From assembly GCF_001570565.1 (NCBI RefSeq), contig NZ_BBXE01000025.1, forward strand, positions 96,674-160,673: DNA of 64,000 nt, written 5' to 3'. A program made the position numbers and the translations under genes. This DNA comes from Herbidospora yilanensis. Lineage in GTDB: Bacteria; Actinomycetota; Actinomycetes; Streptosporangiales; Streptosporangiaceae. The notes below the pieces were generated by a model. It was given only the letters and a program-made list of their open reading frames with translations, was not told the origin of the DNA and made no database searches. Of the stretch, positions 12,357 through 41,899 are shown in pieces (positions within the stretch are counted from its first letter, which is position 1; every line of letters begins with the position of its first letter).

Positions 12357-12455
12357 AAGCGCAAGGGCCGCCCGTGGGTCTAGCATCGGTCATTCCGGGG
12401 TTTTTCCTACGGGGTGCCCTGGAACGACCTACTCGTGCGGCGCGTTGGAGCGGGC

Positions 12456-22229: not shown

Positions 22230-22853
22230 TCAGGGCCGGCTGGACGGCCTTTCGACCGAGGCCAGGAAGTCGGCCATCGACGATGACGGATTGTCGTGCG
22301 GGAAGGAGGTGCCGTCGGCGGTGTGACGGGCCGCCAATGCCCGCGCCCGGTTGGCCGCCGTTTCACGGTGGTCCAGGTAAACGCTGGGATCGATGCTCTT
22401 GCCCTGCCTGCCGTCGAGCTTGCGGCTCTTCTTGCCGGCCTGATCCGTGGTGAGAAATCCGGTGTGTACGTCGAGGTGAAGAATCAGCCAGAGTTCGAAG
22501 CAGGGGTTGGAGATCGCCAGATTGACGCCCTGTTTTCCTGCCAGGTCGACGGCCTGCCGGAGGTCGGGGTGATTCTTCGGCCATTCGACGTCGAAGACGC
22601 ACCAGCATTCGTCGATCTCGTCATCAGACCTTCGGTCGATCGCGCGTCTGACGAGGTTCAGCGGCGCGCCCGGCTCGGGGTCGATCACGATTTCGATCGC
22701 GGTGTCCGCACGGATGTGCGGCAGGCGCCTCAGACCGTTGATGTAGTCGGGCTCCGACTCCTTCCCCTCGCAGAACACCACGATGGTCTTGCGCTCGGGG
22801 CGGTTCGCCACCTTGCGGCGGAGGTCCTTGGCCTTCGTTCGACGGGGGGACAT
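22230..22853 (-). CDS. rloB: RloB-like Toprim protein (AbiLii-like defence component)
   Basis: This is a 207-residue RloB-family protein. The N-terminal block TIVVFCEGKESEPDYINGL carries the Toprim-type glutamate, and WCVFDVEWPKNH fits the following acidic metal site. SNPCFELWLILHL is a strongly conserved family block. RloB is paired with the ATPase RloA in many genomes, and equivalent pairs are the two components of the abortive-infection system AbiL. It starts 8 bp after the stop of the ATPase gene, so the two form an operon. Predicted role: the nuclease-like effector triggered through RloA during phage infection. The trigger is unknown. Confidence 0.82.
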   Translation of the reverse strand: MSPRRTKAKDLRRKVANRPERKTIVVFCEGKESEPDYINGLRRLPHIRADTAIEIVIDPEPGAPLNLVRRAIDRRSDDEIDECWCVFDVEWPKNHPDLRQAVDLAGKQGVNLAISNPCFELWLILHLDVHTGFLTTDQAGKKSRKLDGRQGKSIDPSVYLDHRETAANRARALAARHTADGTSFPHDNPSSSMADFLASVERPSSRP

Positions 22854-22860
22854 CGCTCGA

Positions 22861-24072: not shown

Positions 24073-24083
24073 AACGTCCCCTT

Positions 24084-24133
24084 CTCGCAGATCTACTGCG
24101 AGGATAGCCGTGCATTCGTCGAATCTCGACGAA
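24084..24133. promoter_or_regulatory. Two palindromes upstream of the rloAB operon
   Basis: CTCGCAG-ATCTA-CTGCGAG (24084-24102) and TTCGTCGA-ATC-TCGACGAA (24115-24133) are both perfect. They lie 12 and 43 bp before the rloA start. The first may fold in the leader RNA; the second looks like an operator. No dedicated regulator gene is next to them. Confidence 0.5.
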
Positions 24134-24256
24134 ATCAAGCCTACGTCGACGCCTTACCCGCAAATCGATACTTGAATACTTGCTCAGATGTTTGATCAAC
24201 GGAAGAACCGTCGATAACTCTCCGTAACCATCATCGTTCAGACGGAGGGGACATCG

Positions 24257-24421: not shown

Positions 24422-24595
24422 TCAGGCCGGGCGGGCGCTCTTGGGGCGCATGTCCGTCCAGACCTCCTCGATGTGGGCCAGGCACTCCTCTCTGGTGCCT
24501 TCGAAACCGTCCGGGTGCCAGCCGTCGGGGATCTCCCGTCCGGCGGGCCAGAGAGAGTACTGCTCCTCGTCGTTGCGGACGACCAGGTGGGTCAC
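24422..24595 (-). CDS. MbtH-like NRPS adenylation partner
   Basis: This is a 57-residue MbtH-like protein. The family pattern is complete: [10 protein letters not shown], then [20 protein letters not shown], ending VWTDMRP. MbtH proteins bind adenylation domains and are often needed for their folding or activity. It starts at GTG 24595, overlapping the methyltransferase stop by 4 bp (GTGA), and is the last gene of the NRPS operon. At least one of the four adenylation domains of this cluster is probably MbtH-dependent. Confidence 0.95.
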
Positions 24596-25533
24596 GACGT
24601 GCTCCTTGCGGTGATGAGGGTGTGCGTGGGGGAACGGGTCAGGTCGGTGGTGGTGATGTCGGCGGCGCCGGCTTCCCGGAGCCAGCCCGTGAGCTCGTCC
24701 GTGGTGTAGAGGCGGCCGCCCTGGGTGAGCCACAGGTTCAGCGCGAAGCCCTCGGTGAAGGCCTGGTCGGCCAGGCCGCCGCGCGGGGTCGTCGTGGTCT
24801 CCAGGATGTGGACGTCGGCTCCCGACGCCACCGCCTCCCGCACCAGCCCCCGGGCCCGTTCGCGGGAGAAGCCGTGGACGACGTTGAACAGCAGCACGTG
24901 GTCGTAGCCCTCCAGCGTCAGCGGCTCCGACAGGTCGGCCTCAACCAGGGGAAGCGCGCTGGGCGTGCCGGGCAGGTCGACGACGACCGCGTCCAGGCCC
25001 GGAGTGGCGTCCACGAAGGCCTTGGCGAAGACGCCGTGGCCGCCGCCGACGTCGGCGAGCCGGCCGGGGGTCATCGGGATCAGGCCGACGACCTCTTCGG
25101 CGAGCCAGCCCGCCAGGCCCGACTGGAGCCGGTGGAAGACGGCCAGCTCGTGGGGGCGGCCGGAGAGCCAGCGATAGAAGTCGGCCCGGGGCCGCCCGCT
25201 GGAGACACCGTCGAAGAGGTCCTTCCAGAACTCGCCGAGGATCGACGACCACAGGACCAGCGGGGTGCCGTATCCGGCCGAGACCCAGCCGGGCGAGGCC
25301 GCGAACACGTCGTCGTCGCGGGTCAGGTAACCGGTCGTCACGAGCAGGTCGAGCAGGAGGGTCAGGCCCTCCTCGTCGGCGTCGAGCACCTTGGCCAGGT
25401 CGGTGGCCGTGCCGGGCAGCGCCTCGAAGACGCCGAGCCGCACGGCCGCCGACCCCGCGTGGGCCGACATCGCGCCGACGATGTCGAGCAACGGCATCGG
25501 CGGGGTCTCATGCGGTGGCGGGTTCAACGGCAT
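24592..25533 (-). CDS. O-methyltransferase of the NRPS cluster
   Basis: This is a 313-residue class I SAM-dependent methyltransferase of the plant-OMT/hydroxyindole O-methyltransferase type. The N-terminal helical part (about 10-100) resembles the dimerisation domain. SAM binding is at [15 protein letters not shown], followed by an acidic VVVDLPGTP. The catalytic-histidine region reads [14 protein letters not shown]. The ATG at 25533 has GAGGAGGTG seven bases upstream and overlaps the exporter gene by 26 bp. With the kynurenine-monooxygenase-like enzyme of the same operon, a likely job is methylating a newly introduced phenolic OH; that order is an inference. Confidence 0.85.
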
Positions 25534-26812
25534 CGCGCACCTCCTCCTTCGCCCGGGGGGCGGGCTCCTTGCGCAGCAGCACGGTGACGGCGACGACGGC
25601 CAGGATGAGCGCGTCCACCAGGATGACGAACGCGATGCCGCGCCCCTCCCCCGTGCCGATCACCCGGCCGGCGGTCCCGGCCAGCGCGCCGCCGTCGCGC
25701 AGCAGCGGCCCGGCGACGAACTCGGCCAGCGGCCCGGCCAGCAGGTAGGCGAACGGGCTGCCGATGCCGCCGATCGTGTGCACGGTGCCGAGCACGCGGC
25801 CCAGGCTGTCGGGTTCGATGCCGCTCTGGAGCACGGCGTTGCCGGAGCCCTGCACCACCGGCAGCGTGAACAGGAAGGCGGCCGCCGCCCCGGCGACGAT
25901 CCACGGGCTGGGCTGGAGGGTGTGCAGCACCAGGAAGACGCTGCCGAGCAGCATGAACACGCCCATGCCGCGGACCCGCCTCTTCGGGCCGCCCCACAGG
26001 CCCATCACGATGCCGCCCAGGAACACCCCCGACCCTCCGGCGAACATGAGCGCGCCGAGCACGGCCGGGGAGCCGAACGACAGGATCAGCGGCTGCACCA
26101 GCACCCCGGCCACGGCGAAGCAGAAGTTGTACGCGGTGAACGTCAACGTCAGCCGCATCAGGTCGCCCCGCCGCCGCAGGTAGTGCCATCCGTACGACAG
26201 GTCGGTCAGCGGCGCCTTCGCCGACCCGGCGCCGGGCGCCTTCACCACCGACGCCGGCAGCTTCACGACCAGCAGCGTCGTCACCGCGAGGGCGAAGGTC
26301 ACCAGGTCGAGCACCAGCACGCCGGTCATCCCGATCGCGGCCAGCAGCGCCCCGGCCGCCAGCGGCGCGGCGATCTGGGTGGCCACGGTGATCTGCATGA
26401 GGCCGTTGGCGCGGGCGAGGTGGCGTTCGGGGATGAGCAGCGGGGTCATCGCCTGGTAGGTCGTCATGTGCAGCGTCCCGCAGATCGCGCCCACGAACGA
26501 GCCGAGGCAGATGTGCCACACCTGCAGCGCGTCGTGGTAGAGCAGCAGCGCCTGCGCGCCGGTGCTGAGCGCCACGACGCAGTCGCTGACGATCAGGACG
26601 CGGCGCCGGTCGAACCGGTCGACGATCACCCCGGCGAACGGGCCGACCAGGATGGCGGGCAGCAGCCCCGACAGCATGACCAGCGCGAACAGGGTGGTCG
26701 ACTGGGTGTTCTGGTAGACCCAGACGCCGAGCACGAAGCCCGTCAGGCTCGATCCGACGCCGGAGACCAGCGACGACAACCAGACGATGCCGAATCTCAC
26801 GAGGTCAGGCAC
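25508..26812 (-). CDS. MFS exporter of the NRPS cluster
   Basis: This major facilitator superfamily permease of about 434 residues has 12 transmembrane segments, of the MFS-3/enterobactin-exporter-like group. It has VDRFDRRRVLIVSD in the loop after helix 2 and a matching GGPKRRVRGMGV in the middle. GTG 26812 has GGAGG four bases upstream and overlaps the NRPS stop by 16 bp; GTG 26800, with a GTGA overlap, is an alternative. Its place inside the operon makes it the probable exporter of, or self-resistance pump for, the peptide product. Confidence 0.85.
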   Translation of the reverse strand: MPDLVRFGIVWLSSLVSGVGSSLTGFVLGVWVYQNTQSTTLFALVMLSGLLPAILVGPFAGVIVDRFDRRRVLIVSDCVVALSTGAQALLLYHDALQVWHICLGSFVGAICGTLHMTTYQAMTPLLIPERHLARANGLMQITVATQIAAPLAAGALLAAIGMTGVLVLDLVTFALAVTTLLVVKLPASVVKAPGAGSAKAPLTDLSYGWHYLRRRGDLMRLTLTFTAYNFCFAVAGVLVQPLILSFGSPAVLGALMFAGGSGVFLGGIVMGLWGGPKRRVRGMGVFMLLGSVFLVLHTLQPSPWIVAGAAAAFLFTLPVVQGSGNAVLQSGIEPDSLGRVLGTVHTIGGIGSPFAYLLAGPLAEFVAGPLLRDGGALAGTAGRVIGTGEGRGIAFVILVDALILAVVAVTVLLRKEPAPRAKEEVRDAVEPATA

Positions 26813-29800
26813 ATCGCCTCCACGTAACGCCGGATGAGCGCCCGGTCGGCGGCCGGGCAGGTGATCCCGGCGGCGGTCAGCACCTTCCGGGTGCGCGAAC
26901 AGTCGAACCACGGCCGGGGGAAGACCGGCCGCTCCTCGGGCAGTTCGGTGACGAACGCCGCGAGCGGCAGGTCGGGCAGCCCGTCGTGGACGGCCGCCCG
27001 CCACTCGGCCCACGGAACCAGCCGCACGCCGAGGGCCTCGGCGATCTCCGCGTAGGTGATCGTCGCCTCGTTGAAGTAGTGGTGGTCGTCCCCCGCGCCG
27101 TGCAGCACGTGGTGGACGATCGCGTCGGCCACGTGGTCGACCGGGGAGACGTCCTCGTCGTAGGGCATGTCCGGGGCCATGCCGAGCCGCGTCATCGTGG
27201 CCAGCAGGCGGCTGAAGTAGTCGCCGTCGTTGCCCCATCCGGTCCGGCTGTCGCCGCCGATCCTGGCCGGGCGGTGGATCGAGACGGGGATGCCGCGCTC
27301 GCGCGCCTGCGCGGCGAGCCGGTCGGCGACCCATTTGGTCTGGTTGTAGCCGCCACCCAGGCCGGTCGGGTCCTCCGGCACGTCGGCCTCGGTGATCCGG
27401 CGGCTCTGGTAGGCCTTGCCGAGGTGGACCCCGAGCGTCGAGACGTGGTGGACGGGCACGCCCCCGCCCAGCGCCGACAGCCGCAGGACCGCCAGGGTGC
27501 CGCCGACGTTGACGTCCTTCAGCCGGTGGTACGGCTCCGCGAAGTTGATCAGCCCGCCGTTGTGGCAGATGACGTCGACCCGTTGGGCGAGGCGGGCGAA
27601 CTCCTCCTCGGACAGGCCCAGCCGGGGCGAGCCGAGGTCGCCCGGGATGCCGACGACCCGGGCCTCGGGCAACCCCTGCGCGGCCAGCGCGGCCCGCACC
27701 CGGGCCTCGGCGGCGGCGGGGGTGCCGGCCCGGACGAGACAGAGCAGTTCCGAGACGGGGGCCAGCCGGGCGGCGAGGTGTGCCCCGAGGAAGCCGGTCG
27801 CGCCGGTGAGCAGGACCGTTATGCCCGACCGGTCTCTCGGGACGGTCACCCGGATGTCGCCGGGCAGCACCGCCTCGGCGAGCAGGTCGGGTTCGTCCGA
27901 GGTCGCGTGGGTGCCTTCGATCGTGGCGGCGAGCTCGGCCAGGTCGGCGGTCTCGAACAGGGCGCGCAGCGGGAGGGCGACGCCGAGCCGGTCCTTCAGG
28001 GCCGCCAGCACGCGGGCCGCGAGCAGTGAGTGGCCGCCGAGTTCGAAGAAGTTGTCCCGCCGTCCGACCCTCCGGTCGCCCGCGACGACGACCGACCAGA
28101 CGTCCGCGACCGCCTGTTCGGTCGGGGTCCGCGGGGCCTCGTAGGGGGCCGACACCGTGACCTCGGGCAGGGCGGCCGTGTCGACCTTGCCGTGGCCGGT
28201 GCGGGGGACGGTCTCCAGCGCGACGAACATGTCGGGCACGAGGTGGTCGGGCAGCCGTTCCCGCAGGTAGGAGCGCAGGTCTGACTCCCCGGCGACGAAC
28301 GCGACCAGGCGGTCGCCCGCCGACGTCACGTGGGCGTCGCGCACGCCGGGGTGCGCGGTCAGCGCCGCCTCGACCTCGCCCGGCTCGATGCGGTGGCCGC
28401 GCACCTTGAGCTGGCGGTCCTTGCGGCCGGCGAACTCGAAGCTCCCGTCGAGACGCCGCCGGACCAGGTCGCCGGTCCGGTACATGCGTGCCCCCGGCAC
28501 CCCGGAGAACGGATCGGGCGTGAACCGCTCGGCGGTCATCGCCGGCTGCCCGAGGTAACCCCAGGCCAGGCAGTCGCCCGCGAGGTGGAGCTCGCCGTAG
28601 ACGTTGTCGGGGGCGAGCCCGCCGTGGCCGTCGACGACGTAGGCCCGCACGTGCGGCAGCTCGGTCCCGATGGGCAGGTGCAGCGGCGTCGTGGGCTCCG
28701 CGGCCGTGTGCGTGGTCGCGCATACCGTCGCCTCGGTCGGGCCGTAGTGGTTGACCAGCGGGGTGCCGGTCGCGGCCAGCCAGGTCGCCAGCGCCGCGGC
28801 CGGCACCGACTCGCCGCCGACCATCATCAGCCTGACCGGCCATTCGATCCGGCGTCCGGCCAGCTCGTCGGCCCAGCGACGCCAGAGCGAGGCCGCCGTG
28901 TCGACGGCGGTGATCCCGTGACGCTCGACGAAGGCGAGCAGCGCGTCGGCGTCGAGGCGGGCCGGTTCGTCGTGCAGGACCAGCGCGCCGCCGGTGGAGA
29001 GCACCGGGAACAGGTCGCCCACGGACGCGTCGAAGGTCAGCGGCGGGATCATCAGCACCCGGTCGGCGGCCGTGAACCCGTGGACGTCCACGAAGGCCCT
29101 GGTGAACCTCCGCAGCGAGTCGTGGCCGACGGCGACGCCCTTGGGCGTGCCGGTCGAGCCGGAGGTGAAGATGACGTAGGCGAGCGAGCTCGGTTCCACC
29201 GGGGCGTGGTCGCGTGGGTGGAAACCCTCGTGGTCCACGACGCCCACGGCGTTGGCCGCCGCCAGCATCCGTTCCACTCTCTCCGGAGGGTGGCCGGGGT
29301 CGAGCGGCAGGTAGGCGCAGCCCGCCTGGAGGATGCCCACGATGGCGGCGACGGCGTCGGGTCCGGCGGGGAGACGTACCCCGATGACGCTGCCTTGAGT
29401 CAGCCCGGCCAGGTCGAGGGAGGCGGCCCGGCGCAGCAGCTCGCGGTAGGTCACCGTCTCGGTGTCGGTGATCACCGCGGGTTCGTCGGAGGGCGTGATC
29501 TTCCAGGCCGGCGCTTCGTAGGGGACGGCGCCGGGGGCGCGGGTCTGGAGGGGGACGTCCCAGACGCCCTGGTCGGCGTCGTCGACGGTCGCGCGCAGGA
29601 CGGCGACCATGTGGTGGCCGATCGCGTCGACCGAGGCGGCGTCGAACAGGTCGGTCGCGTAGTCGAGGTGCACGCCGTCGCCCTCGACCACGAGCGTCAG
29701 GTCGAACCGGGCCGGGGGCGCGGCCAGCGCGTGGGCCCGGCCGGTCAGCCCCGGCGCGACCTCGATCGCCCCGCCGGGCTCCCCGGTCACCAGCATGACC

Positions 29801-30843
29801 TGGAAGATCGGGTTGTGGCTGAGGTCGCGCCGCCCGCCAGTCAGCTCGACGACCGAGTCGAACGGCAGCGTGCGATGGTCGAGCGCGGTCATGGTGGTCT
29901 CGCGGGCGAGCCGGACCACCTCGCGCAGCGTCGGGTTCCCGGTGAGGTGGGTCCGCAGCGCGACGGTGTTGACGAACATCCCGGCCGTGCGCTCCAGCTC
30001 GGGCAGTTCGCGGTCGCTGACCGGGGTGCCGATGACGACGTCGTCGGTGCCGGCCATCCGGGCCAGCACGACGTTCAGCGCGGCCAGCACCACCATGAAC
30101 ACGGTCGTCCGGTTGGCCTGCGCCCAGGCCCGCAACTCCCCGGCGAACCCGTCGGGGTAGACGACCGACCGGCGGTCGCCGTCGAAGGTCGGCCGGGCCG
30201 GGCGCGGCCGGTCGAGGGGCAGGTCGAGCAGCCCGCTGACGCCGTCGAGCCGCTGCGCCCAGAACGCCCGGTCGGCCGCGTCGGTGTCGCGGGTCGCCAG
30301 CCACGCCGCGTAGTCCGGATACTGCACCTGGACGGGCGGCAGGCGCTCCCCCCGGTAGAGGGCGTAGACCTCGTCGAACAGGATGCCGGTGGTCTCGCCG
30401 TCGCACACGATGTGGTGCCAGCACATCGCCAGCACGTGCCCGTCGCGGTAGGGGATCAGCAGCACCCGCATCAGCGGCGCCCGCGCGAGGTCGAACCCGT
30501 GGGAGAGGAACTCCTCGATGGTGCCCTCGGTCGAGAAGGGCACCTCGGCCGACGGGACGACGTGCTGGCGGGGCACCCCGTCGCGGACCACGATCGCGGT
30601 CCGCAGGGACTCGTGCCGGGCCACCAGGGCGTCGATCGCCCGGCGCATCCGGGGCACGTCGAGGTCGCCGGTCAGCTCGTGGGCCGCCCAGCACAGGTAG
30701 CGGTCGCCGTCGAACCCCGCCTGGTCGAGGAACCACAACCGTTCCTGCGACGGGGCCAGCGGCGCGTCGGCGCCCGGGTCGCGGCGCGGGATCCCGGACC
30801 GCTGCGCCGCGACCCGCGCCATACGTTCGGACAGTCTGCTCAC
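26797..30843 (-). CDS. NRPS module C-A-T with terminal thioester reductase
   Basis: This terminal NRPS has about 1348 residues. The condensation domain (about 15-435) has HHIVCDG. The adenylation domain (about 450-890) has FTSGSTGTPKG, LTFDASVG and NHYGPTEATVC. The thiolation domain (about 905-970) has FFELGGHSLLAARV. The C-terminal reductase of the short-chain dehydrogenase type (about 1005-1340) has LLTGATGFLGAHLA and YNQTKW. The reductase would release the peptide as an aldehyde or, after a second reduction, an alcohol. The pocket read by hand against GrsA is D-A-G-D-M-G-H-V-C, for which I have no clear substrate; the acidic fourth position hints at a polar or basic amine. GTG 30843 overlaps the previous stop by 4 bp. 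Confidence 0.93.
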   Translation of the reverse strand: MSRLSERMARVAAQRSGIPRRDPGADAPLAPSQERLWFLDQAGFDGDRYLCWAAHELTGDLDVPRMRRAIDALVARHESLRTAIVVRDGVPRQHVVPSAEVPFSTEGTIEEFLSHGFDLARAPLMRVLLIPYRDGHVLAMCWHHIVCDGETTGILFDEVYALYRGERLPPVQVQYPDYAAWLATRDTDAADRAFWAQRLDGVSGLLDLPLDRPRPARPTFDGDRRSVVYPDGFAGELRAWAQANRTTVFMVVLAALNVVLARMAGTDDVVIGTPVSDRELPELERTAGMFVNTVALRTHLTGNPTLREVVRLARETTMTALDHRTLPFDSVVELTGGRRDLSHNPIFQVMLVTGEPGGAIEVAPGLTGRAHALAAPPARFDLTLVVEGDGVHLDYATDLFDAASVDAIGHHMVAVLRATVDDADQGVWDVPLQTRAPGAVPYEAPAWKITPSDEPAVITDTETVTYRELLRRAASLDLAGLTQGSVIGVRLPAGPDAVAAIVGILQAGCAYLPLDPGHPPERVERMLAAANAVGVVDHEGFHPRDHAPVEPSSLAYVIFTSGSTGTPKGVAVGHDSLRRFTRAFVDVHGFTAADRVLMIPPLTFDASVGDLFPVLSTGGALVLHDEPARLDADALLAFVERHGITAVDTAASLWRRWADELAGRRIEWPVRLMMVGGESVPAAALATWLAATGTPLVNHYGPTEATVCATTHTAAEPTTPLHLPIGTELPHVRAYVVDGHGGLAPDNVYGELHLAGDCLAWGYLGQPAMTAERFTPDPFSGVPGARMYRTGDLVRRRLDGSFEFAGRKDRQLKVRGHRIEPGEVEAALTAHPGVRDAHVTSAGDRLVAFVAGESDLRSYLRERLPDHLVPDMFVALETVPRTGHGKVDTAALPEVTVSAPYEAPRTPTEQAVADVWSVVVAGDRRVGRRDNFFELGGHSLLAARVLAALKDRLGVALPLRALFETADLAELAATIEGTHATSDEPDLLAEAVLPGDIRVTVPRDRSGITVLLTGATGFLGAHLAARLAPVSELLCLVRAGTPAAAEARVRAALAAQGLPEARVVGIPGDLGSPRLGLSEEEFARLAQRVDVICHNGGLINFAEPYHRLKDVNVGGTLAVLRLSALGGGVPVHHVSTLGVHLGKAYQSRRITEADVPEDPTGLGGGYNQTKWVADRLAAQARERGIPVSIHRPARIGGDSRTGWGNDGDYFSRLLATMTRLGMAPDMPYDEDVSPVDHVADAIVHHVLHGAGDDHHYFNEATITYAEIAEALGVRLVPWAEWRAAVHDGLPDLPLAAFVTELPEERPVFPRPWFDCSRTRKVLTAAGITCPAADRALIRRYVEAMCLTS

Positions 30844-31487
30844 GAGGGCACCACGTCCCGCAGATGGGCCGGGACGCGGTCGCCGAAGATCGCGCGGTAC
30901 GCCGACACGTGCTGCTCGCGCGAGGTCAGGAACGGCAGGTCGGTGCTGACCATGTGCCGCACGACCAGCATCGGGACCGGCGCCTCCAGCGGGCGCAGCA
31001 GCGGGTTCCATAACCCGCCCTTGTCCGGCGGGCCGTCGTGGAACTCGCCGACCATGACCCCGGCGGGCACGTGCCGGTCCTTGAGGATCTCCTGGGCGCC
31101 GTCGATCAGGTCGAGCCGCCGGGCCGCGTCCGGGAACAGCACCAGCACGGCCGTGTGCATCGAGTCGGCGATCGACCGGGGGGCGAGTTCGCCGAACCAC
31201 TTCCGGTACGGCTCCACCGCGGCGACCACCTCCTCGACGGTCTCCGGCCGTCCGGGGCGGATGGCGAGCAGGAACCGCCCCCGGTCGATGGAGCCCTGGG
31301 CGTAGGGGCAGACCGGACCGCGGCGGCCCAGTTCGGGGTGCGGGCGGCACAGGTACTCGCGCGCCCACGCCGTCACCGTGCGGAGCTGGCGGATGTACAT
31401 GGCGCCCAGCGGGTGGAGGGGGCACCCGCTCTCGACGTCCTTGACGTCGAACAGGCGTAAGGTCGGCTCGTCGGGGTGGGTGATCAC
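30840..31487 (-). CDS. Uncharacterised protein of the NRPS operon
   Basis: This 215-residue soluble protein is translationally coupled on both sides by GTGA overlaps (31484-31487 and 30840-30843), so it is almost certainly part of the pathway. Visible features are a Cys/His-containing block (SGCPLHPLGAMYIRQLRTV), CRPHPELGRRGPVCPYAQGS, and a C-terminal part with HMVSTDLPFLTS and REQHVSAYRAIFG. The spaced Cys residues could bind metal. It may belong to a domain-of-unknown-function group that I recall as DUF6875, but this is from memory and unsure. Its position between the monooxygenase and the terminal module suggests an accessory or tailoring role. Confidence 0.8.
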   Translation of the reverse strand: MITHPDEPTLRLFDVKDVESGCPLHPLGAMYIRQLRTVTAWAREYLCRPHPELGRRGPVCPYAQGSIDRGRFLLAIRPGRPETVEEVVAAVEPYRKWFGELAPRSIADSMHTAVLVLFPDAARRLDLIDGAQEILKDRHVPAGVMVGEFHDGPPDKGGLWNPLLRPLEAPVPMLVVRHMVSTDLPFLTSREQHVSAYRAIFGDRVPAHLRDVVPS

Positions 31488-32770: not shown

Positions 32771-35688
32771 CAGCGCTCGGCCTCCTCCAGGATCTCGTCG
32801 ACCGCGGCCGCGAAATCGGCGACCGTACGGCTGGCGAACAGGGTGCGCACCGGGACGACCAGGTCGACGGCCCGGCGGATGCGCGCCACCACGCGGGTGG
32901 CGAGCAGCGAATGCCCCCCGAGGGCGAAGAAGTCGTCGGTGGCCCCCACACGCGGGACCCCGAGCACTTCGCCGAATATCTGTGCGACCAGTTCCTCGGC
33001 GTCGGTCCGGGGGGCGACGTACGCCTCTCCGGCCACGCCGGGGGTGGGCAGCGCCGTCCGGTCGAGCTTGCCGTTCCGGGTCAGCGGCAGCTCGGGCAGC
33101 GGCACGATGTGGCCCGGCACCAGATGCTCGGGCAGGGTGCGCCGCAGGTGGGCGCGGAGGTCATCGGGGGCGGGGTCGCCCGTCACATAGGCGACCAGGG
33201 AGCCGTCGAGCGCGATCACGGCGGCGCTCCGCACCGAGGGGAAGGTGGTCAGCGCGGCCTCGACCTCGGCGGGCTCTATGCGTACACCCCTGATCTTGAC
33301 CTGGTCGTCGAGGCGGCCGAGGAACTCCAGATCTCCGTCGAGTCTCAGGCGCGCTCTGTCGCCCGTGAGATAGCGGCGGCCGTTCGGCGCCGGCACGAAG
33401 CGCTCGGCGGTGAGGCGCGGCCGGTTCAGGTAGCCCCGCGCGACGCCGACACCGCCGATGGCGAGTTCGCCGGGGATCCCGGGCGGCACCTCCCGCTGCC
33501 GGGCGTCGAGGATCGTGACCGTGGTGCCCGCGATCGGGCGGCCGATCGACGGCTTGCCGTCGCCGAGGTCGGTCGCGGTGGCGATCACCGTGGCCTCGGT
33601 CGGGCCGTAGGTGTTGACCAGGCGGATGCGATCGCCGAAACGGCCGCGCCAGCGCTTGACCGCCGAGGCCGCGACGGGGTCGCCACCGAGGATGACGAGC
33701 CGAAGGTTCGGCGGCCAGGCGATCTCGTCGATCTCCTCGACGAGGGCATGCCAAAAGGAGGTCGGCAAATCGAGCACGGTTACTCGAGCCCCTTCGGAAG
33801 TGGTCAGGAAATCCGGCAGGGTGCGCCCGCCATTGGGCAGCATCACGACCGTAGCCCCCGCTTCCAAGGATGGGAAGATCTCTTCCACGTGGGCGTCGAA
33901 TCCCAGTTCAGAAAACTGCGCCACGCGGTCGCCGGGCTGCAGGTCATAGGCCGTGCGCATCCAGGAAACGCGTTCCGATACGCTCTGGCGATCGATCACG
34001 ACACCTTTCGGCAGACCGGTTGACCCCGACGTGTAAAGCACATACGCGGGTAAGGAATCGTCGGAGATTTCTGTCAGAAGGGGCCCGCTCAAATCCCCCG
34101 GCCGCACCGCCGCGATTTCCGGTAGGAACGCCGCGTCGCCCACCAGAATGCGCGCGCCACCGTCGCGGAGCAAAGTCAAGATACGCGCGGCGGGGAAGCC
34201 GGGATCGACCGGCAGATAGGCCGCCCCGGCCCGCCAGACGGCCAGCAGGACCGGAACGAGATCGAGGCTCCGCTTGAGACCCACCCCCACGACGTCCCCG
34301 GGCCGCACCCCGCGGGCCGCCAGCCCGGCCGCCATCCGCGCGACGCGTTCACCCAGCTCCCGATAGGTGAGCTCGACGCCGTCACAGGAGACGGCGGGGG
34401 AATCGGGATCCGGCTCCGGGGGCCGGTCGGCTTCGGGTGCGTGCCCGGCCGGGCCGGCGCCGCCTTTCGGCGCAGACCGGTCGAGGTCGCAGAACAGGTC
34501 GAGATCGCCGCATCTCTCGCCGGGCCGCTCCGCGATGTCGGCCAGCAGCGCCTGGAACCGGGCCGCGAACCGTTCCGCCGTCGCCCGGTCGAAGCGGCCG
34601 GCATCGTAGGTGAGGATCAGGCCCGTCTCGGCCGGGCCCTGATAGACGTCCAGGGCCAGATCACACTTGGCCGAGGCCAGGCCCGAGTCGTAGATCTCGA
34701 CGTCGAGGTCGCCGAGGCGGGGGCGCTCGGTGGTGGTCCGGGTGTACTGGAACATCGCCTGGAACCGCACCCCGCCCGGCACGTCGCCCGGCACATCGCC
34801 GTGGTCGAACGAGCGCAGCACCGCGCCCCGCGCCCGGCGCAGCGCCTCGGTGAACGGCGGGTCGTCGCCCAGGTCGGTGCGGAGCATCGCCAGGCCGGTG
34901 AAGTAGCCGACCAGGGCTTCGGTGTCGACGCGGTCGCGGCCGAGCATCGGGGTCGCCACGCAGACGTCGTGCTGGGCGGCGTGCCGGGCCAGGAACACCT
35001 GGAAGGCGGCCAGCAGCACCATGAACAGGGTGCCGCGCTCCCTCCTGGCGAGGGCCTCCAGCCCGCCGACCAGCTCCGGCGGGAGGGTGGCGAAGATCTG
35101 GCCGCCCTCCCCGGTCGCCCGGGGCCGGTCGCCGGGCAGGTCCAGCACCGGCAGGCCGCGCAGTTCCGCGTCCCAGTAGCCGGGATGGGAGCGATCCCCG
35201 CGCGCCACGTGGTCGGCGTAGGTGATGGGCAGCGGCGGGAGCACGCCGCCCCGGTAGAGGGTGTCGAGTTCGCGCAGCAGCACGTCGACCGACCAGCCGT
35301 CGGCCGCGATGTGGTGGATGACCAGGCAGAGCACGTGGTCGTCGGGGGCGGCCCTGATCAGGGTGAACCGGGCGACCGGGCCGGCGGCCAGGTCGAACGG
35401 CCGGTTGGCGCGTTCGGCCACGGCCGCCGCGGGGTCGGCGGTCTCGATCCGCTCCAGGGGCGGCCCGGCCGGGGTGACCAGCCGGACCGGGTTCCCGTCG
35501 TCGTCTTCGGCGTACCGGCCGCGCAGCACGTCGTGCCGCCGGGTGATCGCGGTGAGCGCGGCCTCCAGCGCCACGTCGTCGAGGCGGCCCCGGATGCGCA
35601 GGGCCACCGGCATGTTGTACGACGCGTCGGCCGGGTCGAGGCGCTGCAGGAACCAGAGCCGCCGCTGCCCGGCCGACAGCGCACTCAC
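32770..35688 (-). CDS. NRPS module C-A-T, Lys-like specificity
   Basis: This is a 972-residue single-module NRPS. Condensation (about 1-430) has HHIAADG. Adenylation (about 460-880) has YTSGSTGLPKG, LGFDAHVEE, VNTYGPTEATVI and NGKLDR. Thiolation (about 895-965) has FFALGGHSLLATRV. The selectivity pocket, aligned by hand to GrsA, is D-A-E-D-I-G-T-V-I, close to codes I remember for Lys and beta-Lys domains, so a basic amino acid is predicted. There is no epimerase or methyltransferase domain. GTG 35688 overlaps the preceding NRPS stop by 4 bp. The C-terminus lacks an obvious docking helix. Confidence 0.92.
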   Translation of the reverse strand: MSALSAGQRRLWFLQRLDPADASYNMPVALRIRGRLDDVALEAALTAITRRHDVLRGRYAEDDDGNPVRLVTPAGPPLERIETADPAAAVAERANRPFDLAAGPVARFTLIRAAPDDHVLCLVIHHIAADGWSVDVLLRELDTLYRGGVLPPLPITYADHVARGDRSHPGYWDAELRGLPVLDLPGDRPRATGEGGQIFATLPPELVGGLEALARRERGTLFMVLLAAFQVFLARHAAQHDVCVATPMLGRDRVDTEALVGYFTGLAMLRTDLGDDPPFTEALRRARGAVLRSFDHGDVPGDVPGGVRFQAMFQYTRTTTERPRLGDLDVEIYDSGLASAKCDLALDVYQGPAETGLILTYDAGRFDRATAERFAARFQALLADIAERPGERCGDLDLFCDLDRSAPKGGAGPAGHAPEADRPPEPDPDSPAVSCDGVELTYRELGERVARMAAGLAARGVRPGDVVGVGLKRSLDLVPVLLAVWRAGAAYLPVDPGFPAARILTLLRDGGARILVGDAAFLPEIAAVRPGDLSGPLLTEISDDSLPAYVLYTSGSTGLPKGVVIDRQSVSERVSWMRTAYDLQPGDRVAQFSELGFDAHVEEIFPSLEAGATVVMLPNGGRTLPDFLTTSEGARVTVLDLPTSFWHALVEEIDEIAWPPNLRLVILGGDPVAASAVKRWRGRFGDRIRLVNTYGPTEATVIATATDLGDGKPSIGRPIAGTTVTILDARQREVPPGIPGELAIGGVGVARGYLNRPRLTAERFVPAPNGRRYLTGDRARLRLDGDLEFLGRLDDQVKIRGVRIEPAEVEAALTTFPSVRSAAVIALDGSLVAYVTGDPAPDDLRAHLRRTLPEHLVPGHIVPLPELPLTRNGKLDRTALPTPGVAGEAYVAPRTDAEELVAQIFGEVLGVPRVGATDDFFALGGHSLLATRVVARIRRAVDLVVPVRTLFASRTVADFAAAVDEILEEAER

Positions 35689-38600
35689 AAGCCGGCCCGG
35701 CGATCGGCCACGTCGGCCGCGATCCCGGCCACGGTCGGCACGTCGAAGAACACGTAGAACGGCACGTCGACGCCGAGCCGGTCGTGGATGCGCGCGGCGA
35801 TCCTCGCGATGGTCAGCGAGTGGCCGCCGAGCTCGAACAGGCTCTCGTCGTCGCCGATGTGGTCGAGCCCGAGCACCTCCTCCCAGATCTCCCGCACGAC
35901 CTCGGCCGTCTCGTCGGCGGCCGTCCCGGTCTCGGGCGCGGGAGACAGGTCGGGCGCGGGCAGCGCCGCCCGGTCGAGCTTGCCGTTGGGGGTCAGCGGC
36001 ATCCGGTCCAGCGCCACGAACACACTGGGCACCATGTAGGCGGGCAGCACCCGCGCGGCCTCCCGCCGCAGGTCGCCGACGCCGCCGACCGTGTAGGCGA
36101 CGAGCTCCTCCTCGTGTACGGCCACCGCCGCCTCCTGGGCGTGACCGAGCAGCACCGCCTCGATCTCCCCCAGCTCGATGCGGTGCCCGCGCACCTTGAC
36201 CTGGTCGTCGGTCCGCCCGAGGAACTCCAGCCCGCCGTCCCTGACGCGGACGCGGTCGCCGGTCCGGTACATGCGGGCCCCCACGGAGCCGAACGGGCAC
36301 GGCAGGAACCGTTCGGCCGTCAGCGCCGGCCGTCCCAGGTAGCCGCGGGCGAGCCCGGCGCCGGTGATGTACAACTCCCCCGGCACCCCGGTCGGCACCG
36401 GCCGCAGGTCGTCGTCGAGCACCAGCAGCCCGGTCGCGGCCAGCGGCCCGCCGATCGAGATCCGCGCCGGGCCGGGCGGCACCTCCGCGATGGTCGACCA
36501 GATGGTGGTCTCGGTCGGCCCGTAGACGTTGAACAGCCGCGCCACCCTCGGACGCAGCCGGGCCGCCAGCGGCAGCGGCAGCGCCTCCCCGCCGACCAGG
36601 GCGGTGACGGGCGCCTCGAACCCGGCGTCGGCCAGCAGCCGCCAGGTCGAGGGGGTGGCCTGGACGTGGGTGACGCCGTGGGCCGAGATGAGCGCCCGCA
36701 ACGCGCCGCCGTCCGCGGCCTGGGCCTCGGTCGCGACCACGACCCGCCCGCCGGTGACCAGCGGCAGCCACAGCTCCAGCCCGGAGATGTCGAACGACCA
36801 CGACGTGACCGCCAGCCACGTGGCCGAGGGGCCCGAACGTGTCTCGTCCCTGATGGACATCAACAGGTTCGTCAGCGCGGCGTGCCCGACCTCGACGCCC
36901 TTGGGACGGCCGGTGGACCCGGAGGTATAGATGACGTAGGCCCGCTCGCCGAGCGGCCCCGATCCGTCCGACGACCCGATGGTACCGCTTGCGGACACGG
37001 GCAGGCCGAGGGCTACTCTGACCGGCCCCGACCCGTCGCCCGACGATCCGGGAGCACCATCGGACGACCCGATGGTGCCGCTTGCGGGCGCGTCGAGGTT
37101 CATTCTGACCGGCCCCGGCAGGTCGCCGCCCGCGTCGGCCAGCAGCGCGCTCGCGCCGCTGTCGGCCAGGACGTAGTCGAGCCGCTCCGGCGGGTAGGCC
37201 GGGTCGAGCGGCAGGTAGGCCGCGCCCGCCCGCCAGATGCCCAGCACACCCGCGACCAGCCGCTCCGACCGGGCCGCCGAGATGGCGACGAGGTCCCCGG
37301 GGCGCACCCCCGCCCGTCTGAGGCGGGCGGCCACCGCGTCGGCCCGCTCGATCAGCTCGCGGTAGGTGAGTGTCCGTTCGCCGACGACCGCGACGGCGTC
37401 CGGGGTCCGGGTGGCCTGGGCCGCCACTAGGTCGGGGACGGCGGCGGCCTCCGGGTAGGCCCGGCTGGACCACAGGCCCGGCGGCTCCTCGGCCACCGGC
37501 AGCGCGTTCAGCGGCGTCGCCGGTTCGTCGGTGACGTGGCGCAGCACGTCGAGCAGGTGGGCGGCGATGCGTTCGGCGTCCGGGCGCGGCATCGACGCGG
37601 GCGGGAACTGGAGCATCACGCCGAGCCCGTCGGGGCCCTCGACCAGGTGGAACCGCAGGGCGTTGCGGGCGACGTGGTTGAACTCCACCCACTTCACCTC
37701 GGTCCGCAGGCCGGGGAACTCCGGAGGCGATATCCGCCGCCGGTAGGTGAGGGAGACGGGGGCCAGCGCGATGCCGGGCCGGGTGCCGGGGGCGGCCCGG
37801 CCGAGAGGCACCTCGCGCACCCGGTAGAGCTCGCGCAGCCCGGCCCTGATCCGCCGGGCGTAGTCGGTGAACGGCAGGTCGGGCCGGGGGTCCGACGCGA
37901 ACGGCAACTCGTTGACGTGGACGCCGACGCGCCCGGCCGCCCCGGCCTGCCGGGTGCCGAGGTCGAGGGCGGTGACGGGGCCGGCGTTGCCGTACCGGAA
38001 CAGCAGCGCGTGCACCGAGGCCACGACCAGCTCGAACCGGGTCACCCCGAGCTGGGCGGCGGCCTTCTCCAGGATCGGCTCGGTCAGGAAGAACTCGACC
38101 GACTCCCCCGGCTGGACCGCGTCGTCGGGCCGGTCGAGGCCCGGCAGCACGACGTCGGGGAACTCGGTCGGCCGCCCCGACCAGTAGGCCCGCGCGGCCG
38201 GCAGCCCCTCGGCGACCCGGCGGGCCTCGGCGGCCGGGTCGAACGGCTCCGGCGGATCCACCGGGACGGCCTGCCCGTGACGAGAGACGGCGTAGAGGCG
38301 GGCCAGGTCGGCGACGAAGACGTCGGTCGACTGCCCGTCGAAGACCAGGTGGTGGGCCACCACCAGCAGTTCGTGCTCGGCCGGGCCGAGCCGGAACAGC
38401 GTGATCCGGGTCAGCGGCCCGGCGGCCAGGTCGAAGGGCCGCAGGATCGCCTCCCGCCGCGCGCCGGCCAGTCGGCCGGGATCGGTCTCGACGACCTCGA
38501 AGGGCACCGGCGGCCCTTCGACCTGGTAGGGAGCGCCGGCCTCCTCGCGGACCGCCGCTCGCAGGGCGGGGTGCAGGGTGACCACGCCCGCGCAGGCGTG

Positions 38601-38732
38601 GCGCAGCGCGTCCACATCGAGATCACCGGAGAACCGGATCGCGAAAGGCATGTGGTGGACGGCCCCCGCGCCGCCGAGACGTTCGTTGAACCAGATGCCG
38701 CTCTGCGGCACCGAAAGTGGTACTCGTGACAT
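35685..38732 (-). CDS. NRPS module C-A-T, glycine-like specificity
   Basis: This 1015-residue single-module NRPS is first in the minus-strand operon. Condensation (about 5-420) has HHLVFDG. Adenylation (about 445-930) has YTSGSTGRPKG, WSFDISGLEL and NVYGPTETTIW. Thiolation (about 945-1010) has ELGGHSLTIARI. The hand-aligned pocket is D-I-L-Q-L-G-V-I-W, nearly the classical glycine code, so Gly is predicted with fair confidence. Between the A2 and A3 motifs there is an extra Ser/Gly-rich loop carrying a 31-codon direct duplication (36967-37126). The ATG at 38732 is chosen over one four codons upstream because the family start MSRVPLSVPQSG fits. It is divergent from the A-T-C gene. Confidence 0.93.
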   Translation of the reverse strand: MSRVPLSVPQSGIWFNERLGGAGAVHHMPFAIRFSGDLDVDALRHACAGVVTLHPALRAAVREEAGAPYQVEGPPVPFEVVETDPGRLAGARREAILRPFDLAAGPLTRITLFRLGPAEHELLVVAHHLVFDGQSTDVFVADLARLYAVSRHGQAVPVDPPEPFDPAAEARRVAEGLPAARAYWSGRPTEFPDVVLPGLDRPDDAVQPGESVEFFLTEPILEKAAAQLGVTRFELVVASVHALLFRYGNAGPVTALDLGTRQAGAAGRVGVHVNELPFASDPRPDLPFTDYARRIRAGLRELYRVREVPLGRAAPGTRPGIALAPVSLTYRRRISPPEFPGLRTEVKWVEFNHVARNALRFHLVEGPDGLGVMLQFPPASMPRPDAERIAAHLLDVLRHVTDEPATPLNALPVAEEPPGLWSSRAYPEAAAVPDLVAAQATRTPDAVAVVGERTLTYRELIERADAVAARLRRAGVRPGDLVAISAARSERLVAGVLGIWRAGAAYLPLDPAYPPERLDYVLADSGASALLADAGGDLPGPVRMNLDAPASGTIGSSDGAPGSSGDGSGPVRVALGLPVSASGTIGSSDGSGPLGERAYVIYTSGSTGRPKGVEVGHAALTNLLMSIRDETRSGPSATWLAVTSWSFDISGLELWLPLVTGGRVVVATEAQAADGGALRALISAHGVTHVQATPSTWRLLADAGFEAPVTALVGGEALPLPLAARLRPRVARLFNVYGPTETTIWSTIAEVPPGPARISIGGPLAATGLLVLDDDLRPVPTGVPGELYITGAGLARGYLGRPALTAERFLPCPFGSVGARMYRTGDRVRVRDGGLEFLGRTDDQVKVRGHRIELGEIEAVLLGHAQEAAVAVHEEELVAYTVGGVGDLRREAARVLPAYMVPSVFVALDRMPLTPNGKLDRAALPAPDLSPAPETGTAADETAEVVREIWEEVLGLDHIGDDESLFELGGHSLTIARIAARIHDRLGVDVPFYVFFDVPTVAGIAADVADRRAGL
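36967..37126. repeat. 93-bp (31-codon) direct duplication inside an adenylation domain
   Basis: Two copies, offset by 93 bp, share blocks such as acgacccgatggt and ctgaccggcccc. In protein they give repeated ASGTIGSSDG segments in the loop between adenylation motifs A2 and A3. The reading frame is kept. Confidence 0.7.
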
Positions 38733-38866
38733 TACCCGCCCCAACGCTTCGCTTATTTCGTGAGTATGACCAGAAATTGCATTCAGTTGCTAGATACTTG
38801 TGAGGATTCGTCTGGTCTGATTTACTCCCCTTCCGACCGTCTGCCGGACGCGGAAGAGGTGGGCCC
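38733..38866. promoter_or_regulatory. Divergent promoter region of the NRPS cluster
   Basis: This 134-bp, relatively AT-rich gap separates the two divergent NRPS transcription units and must hold both promoters. GGAAGAGGTG near its right end is the ribosome binding site for the gene at 38867. I see no clear palindromic operator, and no pathway-specific regulator is encoded in the cluster. Confidence 0.6.
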
Positions 38867-41800
38867 ATGACCGCGACCCTCCCCCACTTACTTCGAGCGA
38901 GGGCCGTCGAACAACCGGACAGAACTGCTCTGATCTGCGCAGACGGCAGGGAGCTGACGTTCGGCGAATGGGACGCGGAGGCCGACTCCGGGGCACATGC
39001 TCTGCTCGGCAAGGGCTTGCAACGGGGCGACCGGGTCGGCCTGCTCTTCGATAACGACCGATGGGCGGATTTCGCCGTCGCCTGCATGGCTGTCTTGCGC
39101 GCCGGTGGCGTCGCCGTGCCACTGTCCGCCCGGCAGTCGGCCGCCACCCTGAAGGTGATGACCGACGACTGCGCGGCCCGGTGGGTGCTGACGGAGGCGC
39201 CGGGGGGACCGCCGTCGGGCTCGGGGGTGCCCGACGTCGGCCTCTCCCCCGGCGACCCCGCCCAGATCCTCTACACCTCGGGCACGACCGGGACGCCGAA
39301 GGGCGTCATGGCCACCCACGCCAACCTGGCCTGGGGGCACACGGAGAGACCCCCGTTCCGGGCCTTCGGCCACTCGGAGCACTTCCTGCACGCGTTCCCG
39401 ATCGGCACCAACGCCGGGCAGATGATGCTGGTCAACACCCTGACGGCGCATCCGGCGGCGGTCGTGGCGGCCCGCTTCGACGCGGCCGGGTTCTGCGGGC
39501 TCATCGAGAGGTTCCGCGCCGGGACGGTGTTCGTGGTGCCCGCGATGGCGACCGAGCTCCTCGACTCCGGGGCGTGGCGCGGCCACGACCTGTCGAGCGT
39601 GGTGCTGCTGAGCTCGTCGGCCGACGCGCTGCCGCCCCGTGTGGCGGCCGGCCTGCCGGAGGCCTTCCCGAAGGCCACGATCGTCAACTACTACACCTCG
39701 ACCGAGGCGGTGCCCGCCCAGACCACGATGATCGTCGACCCCCGCCGCCCCGACTCGGTCGGCCGCGCGACCGCCCGCGGCGACCTGATGATCGCCGACG
39801 AAGAGGGCACGCCCCTGGCCCCGGGTGAGGTCGGCGAGGTGTGGCTGCGCGCCCCCGCCGCCCAGCGGACCTACTACGGCGACCCCGGGACCAGCGCGAA
39901 GACCTTCAGGAACGGCTGGACCCGGATGGGCGACCTGGGCCGCCTGGACGCCGACGGCTACCTCTACCTGGTCGGCCGGGAGAGCGACGTCGTCAAGTCG
40001 GGCGGCCTCAAGATCTCCCTGCCGCAGGTCGAGGCGGCGGTCCGCGAGCACCCGTCGGTCGCCGACGCGGCCGTGGTCGGGCTGCCGCACCCCACGATGG
40101 GCCAGATGATCGCCTGCGCGGTGGTCCGAAAGCCGCCACGAACAGAACAGCTCGCCGAAGCGCTCAGATCAGGCGGCGACGCCACGAAGGCATCCGCATT
40201 ACGTGACACCGGACCGAAAGCGCTCACAGCAGGCGGCGCCCCCTCGGAAGCACTCGTTTCCGGTGACCAGGTTCTCACCGCCGACCGGCTGCGTGCCTTT
40301 CTCCATCAGCGGCTCGCCCGCAATGAGGTGCCCTCTCGTTATGTCTTCGTCGACGCGTTGCCGCGCAACGAGCTCGGCAAGGTCGTCAAGGCCGAGGTGC
40401 GGGCGTTGTTCTCGGTCGCCGAGCCGGCCGGTCGGCCGTTGGAGACGGACGAGGAGCGCGCCCTGGCCCGCTTGTGGACCGGGGTGCTCGGGGTGCCCGC
40501 GACCAGCGCGGACGACGACTTCTTCGCCCTCGGCGGGGACTCGCTGCGGGCGGCCCAGCTCGCCGCGCGGGTGGCCGAGAGGTTCGGGGTGCCCGTCGAG
40601 GGGACCTTCGCCTTCGACCGGCCGGTGCTGGCGCATCAGGCCGGACAGATCCGCGACGCCGTCGCCACCGCCGCGGGCGACGACGACGTGGTTCTGGCGG
40701 ACGGCGCCCTCTCCGGAGTGCAGGCCCACTGGTGGCGGTGGATGCACGCCTCCGGAGAGCGGCGTCACATGCCGCCCGTGCACGTCGCGGTGCGGGTGCC
40801 CGGCGGCCTCGACCTCGACGTCCTCGGCCGGGCGGTGGCCGAGCTCGTCCGGCGGCACGACAGCCTGCGGACCGTCTTCCGCGACCCGGGCGTCGGCCCG
40901 GTGCTGGAGTCTCTCGAAGTTCCAATCGCCGTCCATCGACGCGCGACCGAGGCCGAGGCGGCGCTGCTCGCGGCCGAGCGGGTGCGGGCGCCGTTCGACG
41001 TCGAGAACGGGCCGCTGCTGCGGGTCGAGGTGATCGAGCTGCCCGAAGGGTGCGTGCTGGTCGTCTCCGTCCACCATCTGGTGTTCGACGGCGGGTCGGC
41101 CACGGTGCTGTTGCGAGAGCTCGGCGTGCTCTACTCCGCCTTCCGGCACGGCGCGTCGTCGCCGCTGCCCCCGGCCGTCTCCTACGGCGAGGTGGTGGCG
41201 TGGGAACGCCTCGAATGGACACGGCACCGCGTGTGGTGGGAGACCGCCCTGAAGGACGCTCCCGCGTCGCTGGAGCGGCTGCCCGGGAGGGCCAGGGACG
41301 TCCGGCGCTACCTGGCCGACGCGCACCACTTCGACGTCCCGGACGTGCGCGAACTGGCCCGCTCGCGGGGCGCCACGGTGTCGATGACGCTGGCGGCGGC
41401 CTGGGCGCTGACCCTCGGCGCGTGGGCCCGCGCCCCCGAACTCGTGGTCGCCACCCCGGTCAGCGGGCGGTCGAAGCCCGGGTTCGAGAACGCGGTCGGC
41501 TGCCTGTTCCGGTGGAACCTGATCACCGTCCCGGGGTCGGGGGCGCTGCCCGACGTGGTCGACCACGTCCGGCGGGAGTCGCTCGCCGCCGCCGAACGGC
41601 AGTTCCACGACTGGGGCCACCTGCACGCGGCGGTGCCGTTCCCGGCGTACTTCCGGTTCGAGAGCTGGGGGCGTCCGGCCCACCTGCCGGGGGTGCCGTC
41701 AGAGGAGTTCGCCGTCCCGGCCGGGCCGATCATGGAGTGGACGCTGCCCGACGACGACCCCGACCTGCACCCCCCGGAGATCCTGATCAGCGAGGCGCAC

Positions 41801-41899
41801 GACGGGACGCTGCGCGGCCAGCTCATCTACAACCGGCACGCCTACGAAGCCGCCGCCATCGCCGGCCTGGCCGCCGACTTCGTCCGGAGGATCGCTTGA
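38867..41899 (+). CDS. Loading NRPS protein with A-T-C domain order
   Basis: This 1010-residue protein has the unusual order adenylation, thiolation, condensation. The adenylation domain (about 10-515) is of the acyl/aryl-acid ligase type (LYTSGTTGTPKGVMATH, NYYTSTEAVPAQ, YLYLVGRESDVVKSGGL, catalytic Lys in NELGKVVKAE) rather than an amino-acid type. Thiolation (about 530-600) has FFALGGDSLRAAQL. The condensation domain (about 620-1000) has an intact HHLVFDG. It probably activates a carboxylic acid starter and passes it to the minus-strand modules. Because the next module (35685-38732) also starts with a condensation domain, one of the two may be redundant or specialised. An Ala/Gly-rich insertion with a 60-bp duplication lies near residues 425-465. 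Confidence 0.9.
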   Translation: MTATLPHLLRARAVEQPDRTALICADGRELTFGEWDAEADSGAHALLGKGLQRGDRVGLLFDNDRWADFAVACMAVLRAGGVAVPLSARQSAATLKVMTDDCAARWVLTEAPGGPPSGSGVPDVGLSPGDPAQILYTSGTTGTPKGVMATHANLAWGHTERPPFRAFGHSEHFLHAFPIGTNAGQMMLVNTLTAHPAAVVAARFDAAGFCGLIERFRAGTVFVVPAMATELLDSGAWRGHDLSSVVLLSSSADALPPRVAAGLPEAFPKATIVNYYTSTEAVPAQTTMIVDPRRPDSVGRATARGDLMIADEEGTPLAPGEVGEVWLRAPAAQRTYYGDPGTSAKTFRNGWTRMGDLGRLDADGYLYLVGRESDVVKSGGLKISLPQVEAAVREHPSVADAAVVGLPHPTMGQMIACAVVRKPPRTEQLAEALRSGGDATKASALRDTGPKALTAGGAPSEALVSGDQVLTADRLRAFLHQRLARNEVPSRYVFVDALPRNELGKVVKAEVRALFSVAEPAGRPLETDEERALARLWTGVLGVPATSADDDFFALGGDSLRAAQLAARVAERFGVPVEGTFAFDRPVLAHQAGQIRDAVATAAGDDDVVLADGALSGVQAHWWRWMHASGERRHMPPVHVAVRVPGGLDLDVLGRAVAELVRRHDSLRTVFRDPGVGPVLESLEVPIAVHRRATEAEAALLAAERVRAPFDVENGPLLRVEVIELPEGCVLVVSVHHLVFDGGSATVLLRELGVLYSAFRHGASSPLPPAVSYGEVVAWERLEWTRHRVWWETALKDAPASLERLPGRARDVRRYLADAHHFDVPDVRELARSRGATVSMTLAAAWALTLGAWARAPELVVATPVSGRSKPGFENAVGCLFRWNLITVPGSGALPDVVDHVRRESLAAAERQFHDWGHLHAAVPFPAYFRFESWGRPAHLPGVPSEEFAVPAGPIMEWTLPDDDPDLHPPEILISEAHDGTLRGQLIYNRHAYEAAAIAGLAADFVRRIA
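40151..40260. repeat. 60-bp (20-codon) diverged direct duplication in the A-T-C gene
   Basis: Two in-frame copies offset by exactly 60 bp share aagcgctca and caggcggcg. They form a low-complexity insertion in the C-terminal subdomain of the adenylation domain. Confidence 0.6.

Follow-up and report, generated by a model that had tools for sequence, protein, structure and literature searches.

A nonribosomal peptide synthetase cluster of Herbidospora yilanensis whose DUF6875 protein and kynurenine monooxygenase homologue may prepare a tryptophan-type terminal residue

The window analysed here, a 64-kb stretch of the 7.85 Mb genome of Herbidospora yilanensis, carries a nine-gene nonribosomal peptide synthetase (NRPS) cluster at positions 24422–41899. 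It is probable, at roughly 0.6 by our estimate, that its DUF6875 protein, its homologue of kynurenine 3-monooxygenase (KMO) and its O-methyltransferase (OMT) together make an oxygenated, O-methylated tryptophan-type residue, which the terminal condensation-adenylation-thiolation-reductase (C-A-T-R) module would add last and release reductively. The main clue is the DUF6875 gene, which an earlier note on this DNA named in neither its title nor its reasoning. The nine genes, which include an efflux protein of the major facilitator superfamily (MFS), are as follows.

38867–41899, plus strand: A-T-C starter protein with an acyl/aryl-acid ligase-type A domain (Pfam AMP-binding, PP-binding and Condensation; motifs)
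35685–38732, minus strand: C-A-T protein with a Gly-type A code, D-I-L-Q-L-G-V-I-W (Pfam; motifs)
32770–35688, minus strand: C-A-T protein with a Lys-like A code, D-A-E-D-V-L-T-V-I, substrate uncertain (Pfam; motifs)
31484–32770, minus strand: KMO-homologous FAD monooxygenase with a changed aryl pocket (Pfam; PDB matches; alignment; tree)
30840–31487, minus strand: DUF6875 protein (Pfam PF21780, 1.3e-61)
26797–30843, minus strand: terminal C-A-T-R module with A code D-A-G-D-M-V-H-V-C and a thioester reductase (Pfam; NCBIfam TIGR01746; motifs)
25508–26800, minus strand: MFS efflux protein (Pfam MFS_1, 2e-28)
24592–25533, minus strand: OMT of the DnrK/MfnG/MmcR type (Pfam Methyltransf_2 and Dimerisation)
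24422–24595, minus strand: MbtH-like protein of 57 aa (Pfam MbtH, 3.1e-20)

The minus strand carries eight of the genes, which between 38732 and 24422 follow one another in the order C-A-T, C-A-T, KMO homologue, DUF6875, C-A-T-R, MFS, OMT and MbtH, with the A-T-C gene divergent from them. Their seven joints overlap by 4, 1, 4, 4, 4, 26 and 4 bp, respectively, where the 26-bp MFS/OMT overlap is counted with the first ATG of the OMT gene and later starts are possible. The earlier note had described this layout, with overlaps of 1–4 bp at all joints except MFS/OMT, and the measured joints agree with it.

The existence of the cluster is confirmed, and it is intact. Pfam recognises four domains each of the A, T and C types as well as one NAD_binding_4 domain, which NCBIfam TIGR01746 identifies as a thioester reductase; the motifs HHxxxDG and GG[HD]SL each occur four times, the A10 GK is present in all four A domains, and the R domain has both TGATGFLG and YxxxK. 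The completeness of these domains is thereby confirmed, and the domain order and reductive release that had been proposed hold up. Several motif patterns found no match (A3 in the terminal protein, CATR; A8 in the starter protein, ATC, and in CATR; A7 in the C-A-T protein CAT2); the CATR sequence nonetheless reads FTSGSTGTPKG in its A3 region. The genes are under purifying selection, with dN/dS values of 0.15–0.38 across eight of them (MbtH excluded) in comparison with two congeners (L040 and L041). The A codes were taken by motif, without structure alignment; we take the first C-A-T code to specify Gly and the second, with less certainty, to specify Lys or a similar diamino acid. With these provisos the acid starter, Gly and Lys-like order of the earlier note holds. 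The best NCBIfam relatives of the A-T-C protein are fatty-acid/acyl-CoA ligases, and, since three condensations are enough for the chain, one of the four C domains is surplus.

The terminal A code does not resemble that of the adjacent Lys-like module, which is one of the points that bear on a myxochelin-like siderophore line with a C-A-T-R end. The terminal protein has MxcG (NF038078) as its top NCBIfam match (609 bits, residues 26–1343), and EntS is among the NCBIfam matches of the MFS protein, but 609 bits is far below the MxcG cut-off of 2300, and a Pfam scan of the nine cluster proteins found no catechol pathway gene, no C-methyltransferase and no kynureninase. A siderophore of this kind thus seems very improbable.

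The DUF6875 protein matches PF21780 at 208.2 bits against a curated cut-off of 24.5. In the available part of PMC13307353, the only paper found to use the name DUF6875 in the PMC literature (which is only part of all literature), these proteins are a heme family tied to tryptophan oxidation, including C7 hydroxylation. Deletion of either zigI (DUF6875) or zigH (methyltransferase) from the zigralone cluster gave a demethoxylated shunt product, and the authors of that paper expect a methylation after hydroxylation at C7 (PMC13307353). By family membership, the window protein is predicted to bind heme and to carry out an oxidation as part of this tryptophan-acting group. Residues invariant among 44 DUF6875 sequences include W41, R55, G57, C60, P61, H150 and R177. 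AlphaFold2 models the window protein with confidence (pLDDT 92.3), and the best Foldseek match of this model in the PDB, which is a weak one, is AglA (9ub3; E 0.0096, TM 0.40), a heme enzyme; a fold like that of tryptophan 2,3-dioxygenase (TDO) was not supported by this search. The Herbidospora sakaeratensis DUF6875 protein (L033, 15693–16397) has about 20 extra residues in its middle. In two other loci (L099, 10526–12073; L102, 10507–11910), DUF6875 lies just ahead of what by eye is an aromatic amino acid decarboxylase-like protein, an arrangement that would fit hydroxytryptamine formation.

The cluster monooxygenase is homologous over its full length to KMOs of known structure, which are its nearest solved relatives (6lkd, 4.4e-75; 5fn0, 1.3e-73). 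In the accessible text of PMC5477544, R84 and Y98 of the Pseudomonas fluorescens enzyme, whose numbering is used throughout, hold the amino-acid end of the substrate, Y404 touches the substrate and N369 contacts the acid group of an inhibitor; the ring site comprises F238, P318, F319, H320, G321, A56, I106, L213 and M373, and a side pocket N54, E195, L226 and T236. We compared 41 cluster-type sequences with five reference KMOs (two PDB chains and three actinobacterial proteins). R84, Y98 and N369 are present in all 41 cluster-type sequences and Y404 in 40, and the window protein has all four. The ring pocket is different: A56G, M373L and the adjacent L226H occur in 41/41 cluster-type sequences and in none of the five references. 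I106L is likewise universal in the cluster type, although one reference KMO also has leucine there. L213, F238, P318, F319 and G321 are kept in all 41, and the remaining ring residues are either kept or variable in the references as well. N54 of the side pocket is serine in five of the 41. Eight of 404 alignment columns are fixed but different between the two groups, and the 17 named positions account for three of these eight (Fisher p 0.003), where it is the counts that we lean on and not the Fisher value because related sequences were treated as independent. In a midpoint-rooted tree with long PDB branches, from which ten near-duplicates were omitted (L037, L038, L039, L041, L056, L067, L069, L088, L089 and L106), the cluster type separates from the five references with 100/100 support. 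By alignment and tree, then, the KMO homologue lies outside the clade of these five KMOs and its predicted ring pocket is changed. The combination of a retained head-group site and an altered aryl pocket suggests that the enzyme works on a free amino acid whose ring differs or bears a substituent. Sinosporangium siamense has two clusters (L086 and L063), and the L086 KMO groups with Streptomyces sequences (100/100), which suggests horizontal transfer.

The same enzyme could instead act on ring-opened kynurenine. TDO of primary metabolism would open the ring of tryptophan, or of a hydroxytryptophan made by DUF6875, and KMO hydroxylation and the OMT would complete the residue for the terminal module. 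TDO is present in all six genomes searched, this one included, and the homology to KMO and its intact head-group site would both suit such a route. On the other hand, clusters that use kynurenine units often hold a TDO of their own, and this genome's TDO, used as a tblastn query, matched none of the 80 DUF6875 loci described below (flanks up to 10 kb), whereas it found 8/8 control loci at identities down to 26%. Two of the actinobacterial reference KMOs (L124 and L127) adjoin a TDO gene, and the third, from this genome, is on a different contig from the TDO found. This lack, the separate clade and the changed pocket make the kynurenine route unlikely, if still a serious possibility. The 3-hydroxykynurenine-type unit put forward in the earlier note therefore survives only in part: KMO homology and the amino-acid site speak for it, and clade, pocket and the lack of a TDO match in the loci speak against it. 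The constant partnership of the KMO homologue with DUF6875 favours a modified tryptophan over plain 3-hydroxykynurenine.

That partnership is seen in relatives of the cluster. Named genomes were scanned with an alignment of DUF6875, which gave 131 loci. The best 80 were used, and 13 of these are under 20 kb, mostly because a contig ends there. Genes in these loci were called by a simple composition-based caller, and presence or absence was judged by tblastn with the window proteins. A cluster-type KMO homologue (at least 49% identical to that of the window) is present in 49 of the 80, and these 49 loci contain the terminal A signature in 45 cases, the reductase in 45, the OMT in 40 and the MFS protein in 38. 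The signature was found in only two of the 31 loci that have no KMO homologue. Four KMO loci lack it; in two (L042 and L044) the stretch stops within the terminal module, L072 has C-A and R matches all the same, and the fourth (L083) is considered below. G239, D278 and H322 of the terminal A code are present in 47/47 signature-bearing loci, where the constancy of H322 is partly built in because position 322 (H or Q) belonged to the search signature; positions 299 and 301 are somewhat variable. Among 60 genomes, a strong KMO-homologue match (at least 58% identity) occurs in the window's genome and nine others, and all ten have DUF6875. KMO-bearing loci are found in Streptosporangiaceae, Thermomonosporaceae, Pseudonocardiaceae, Streptomycetaceae, Micromonosporaceae and one Gemmatimonadota bin, and 53 of 297 genomes sampled from the order have a DUF6875 match. 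The cluster, which had been presented as a single oddity, thus belongs to a wider actinobacterial family.

The usual core of this family is the KMO homologue, DUF6875, the OMT and the terminal module, and the upstream modules vary among relatives. The starter and both C-A-T modules are also present in Herbidospora and Acrocarpospora loci; in Thermocatellispora the starter is split and nothing matches the two upstream A domains; and in Planobispora rosea and two Planomonospora loci (L053–L055), only the KMO homologue, DUF6875, OMT, MFS and C-A-T-R were seen within 10 kb flanks. The last three loci share the core, but within those flanks neither the starter ligase nor the upstream modules find a match; this weighs against the idea that the oxygenases and OMT modify the acyl starter, or the peptide after its release, and not the terminal residue. 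Post-release tailoring is generally common, but the terminal A signature follows the KMO/DUF6875 pair, and the head-group site of the KMO suggests that its substrate is a free amino acid, so this idea appears improbable. Nonomuraea soli has DUF6875 together with a terminal C-A-T-R in four loci (L043, L047, L051 and L071), of which L051 has no KMO. Several loci (L047, L050, L051, L063, L071, L074 and L104) also encode a condensation-like protein of about 500 aa that stands on its own, and its Thermocatellispora copy (L028, 10856–12367) is a Pfam Condensation domain. In the Streptomyces-type loci L082, L084–L088 and L106, a sulfotransferase-like gene and mostly also a sulfatase-like gene, both judged by eye, lie upstream of the clusters, near 0.4–4.4 kb of these loci.

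Several observations weigh against a residue made from tryptophan by the DUF6875, KMO and OMT proteins in concert. The changes in the KMO ring pocket are also compatible with a kynurenine that carries an extra group, and the TDO elsewhere in this genome could provide kynurenine. The DUF6875 model has no PDB match at E ≤ 0.001 by Foldseek. Of the 80 DUF6875 loci, 31 have no cluster-type KMO, so that the two proteins are not bound together family-wide, and the Gemmatimonadota locus L083 has both of them but neither the terminal signature nor the reductase. The OMT was undetected in nine of the 49 KMO loci and the MFS protein in 11, some of which are cut at contig or flank ends, and seven full-length Streptomyces-type loci lack an MFS match. 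Finally, L048 and L051 carry the core without a KMO in cis. These are the two signature loci without KMO, and their genomes each have a cluster-type KMO elsewhere, that of the L048 genome adjoining a second DUF6875 gene; this weakens the notion that the KMO is optional, and the presence of KMO in trans in both is counted in favour of a tryptophan-derived residue.

If the residue is made from tryptophan, the following sequence of events can be proposed. The ring of L-tryptophan would first be oxygenated by the DUF6875 heme protein, perhaps at C7 as proposed for its relative ZigI. Because it retains the amino-acid site and has an altered ring pocket, the KMO homologue would then place a second ring oxygen onto this modified free amino acid, and the OMT, whose PDB relatives are weak (best 3.7e-6), would methylate a ring hydroxyl. 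Meanwhile a carboxylic acid would be loaded by A-T-C, and Gly and a Lys-like residue added by the two C-A-T proteins. The terminal C-A-T-R would load the custom residue through its conserved A code and join it to the acyl-Gly-(Lys-like) chain, its R domain would release an aldehyde or alcohol (either redox level could apply), and the MFS protein would probably export the product.

Searches of the PMC literature (MIBiG not covered) showed no match to the gene set, and the closest parallel in plan is saframycin A (SfmA/SfmB/SfmC). As far as the partial texts of PMC9570651 and PMC6274189 go, that line has an acyl ligase-carrier start, Gly, a terminal C-A-T-Re and a cryptic acyl chain, and its aromatic residue is prepared beforehand by SfmD oxidation and O-methylation, SfmD being a heme enzyme according to a reference title. 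Here Pfam, NCBIfam and motifs indicate a similar acyl ligase-carrier start, Gly module and terminal C-A-T-reductase, but the oxygenase pair is DUF6875 and a KMO homologue, there is a Lys-like module, and C-methyltransferase is missing from the nine proteins. By analogy, the plan resembles that of saframycin with tryptophan in place of tyrosine; we do not assert that the cluster belongs to that family, of which a modified tyrosine as terminal residue, iterative Pictet-Spengler cyclisation and subsequent removal of the leader are further features. In its fullest form this comparison would give a tryptophan-based, saframycin-like family widespread in actinobacteria, in which one and the same indole amino acid passes from a heme DUF6875 enzyme to a repurposed KMO and becomes a catechol/quinone-type methoxytryptophan, the reactive aldehyde released by the terminal C-A-T-R cyclises or dimerises, and the acyl-peptide leader varies with the species and in some is dispensable; this elaboration is tentative and, taken whole, rather doubtful.

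Other known systems share smaller parts. ZigI/ZigH of zigralone are likewise a DUF6875 and methyltransferase pair with a proposed methoxy group on an indole-derived ring, but theirs is a terpenoid pathway, and the cluster as described in the available portion of PMC13307353 has no NRPS, KMO or reductase. True KMOs share full-length homology and R84, Y98, N369 and Y404 with the cluster enzyme, which differs by its own clade, by A56G/M373L/L226H and by having no TDO match alongside. The anthranilate-type unit of the pyrrolobenzodiazepines derives from tryptophan/kynurenine. Their lines, so far as the partial source text goes, also have a C-A-PCP-RE protein (PCP, peptidyl carrier protein) and reductive release, but the aromatic unit is loaded first by a separate A-PCP protein, whereas here the core goes with the last module, and kynureninase is not found among the nine proteins. 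Rotihibin was set aside, its structure being different. In biffamycin, a heme tryptophan hydroxylase and an OMT (BifE/BifF) also supply an NRPS, with 4-methoxytryptophan, but BifE belongs to a TDO sub-family rather than to DUF6875 and the product is a cyclic tetrapeptide (PMC13285481, available part). Mansouramycin has a tryptophan origin in common, but no matching NRPS-reductase core was found in the accessible text of PMC12690601.

If the tryptophan-type residue is correct, a gene family in five named actinobacterial families has a dedicated route to an amino acid that we could not match to a known product, and its repurposed KMO would allow a clear test of the way in which an enzyme for kynurenine comes to act on a new ring. 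The products could be found and named by way of the conserved terminal A domain; given reductive release, they are likely to be reactive aldehydes, imines or alcohols.

Three other regions of the window may be mentioned. Directly beside the cluster, at 22230–24138, are an AAA_21 ATPase and a RloB-like protein, a pairing that recalls candidate anti-phage genes. A gene at 42395–47164, in a low-GC patch (0.55–0.64), encodes a secreted-looking protein of 1589 aa that combines three stretches resembling bacterial Ig domains with a P-domain and, at its C-terminus, a NucA/NucB DNase domain. Farther away, 12414–14708 encodes a SecA-like protein of 764 aa.

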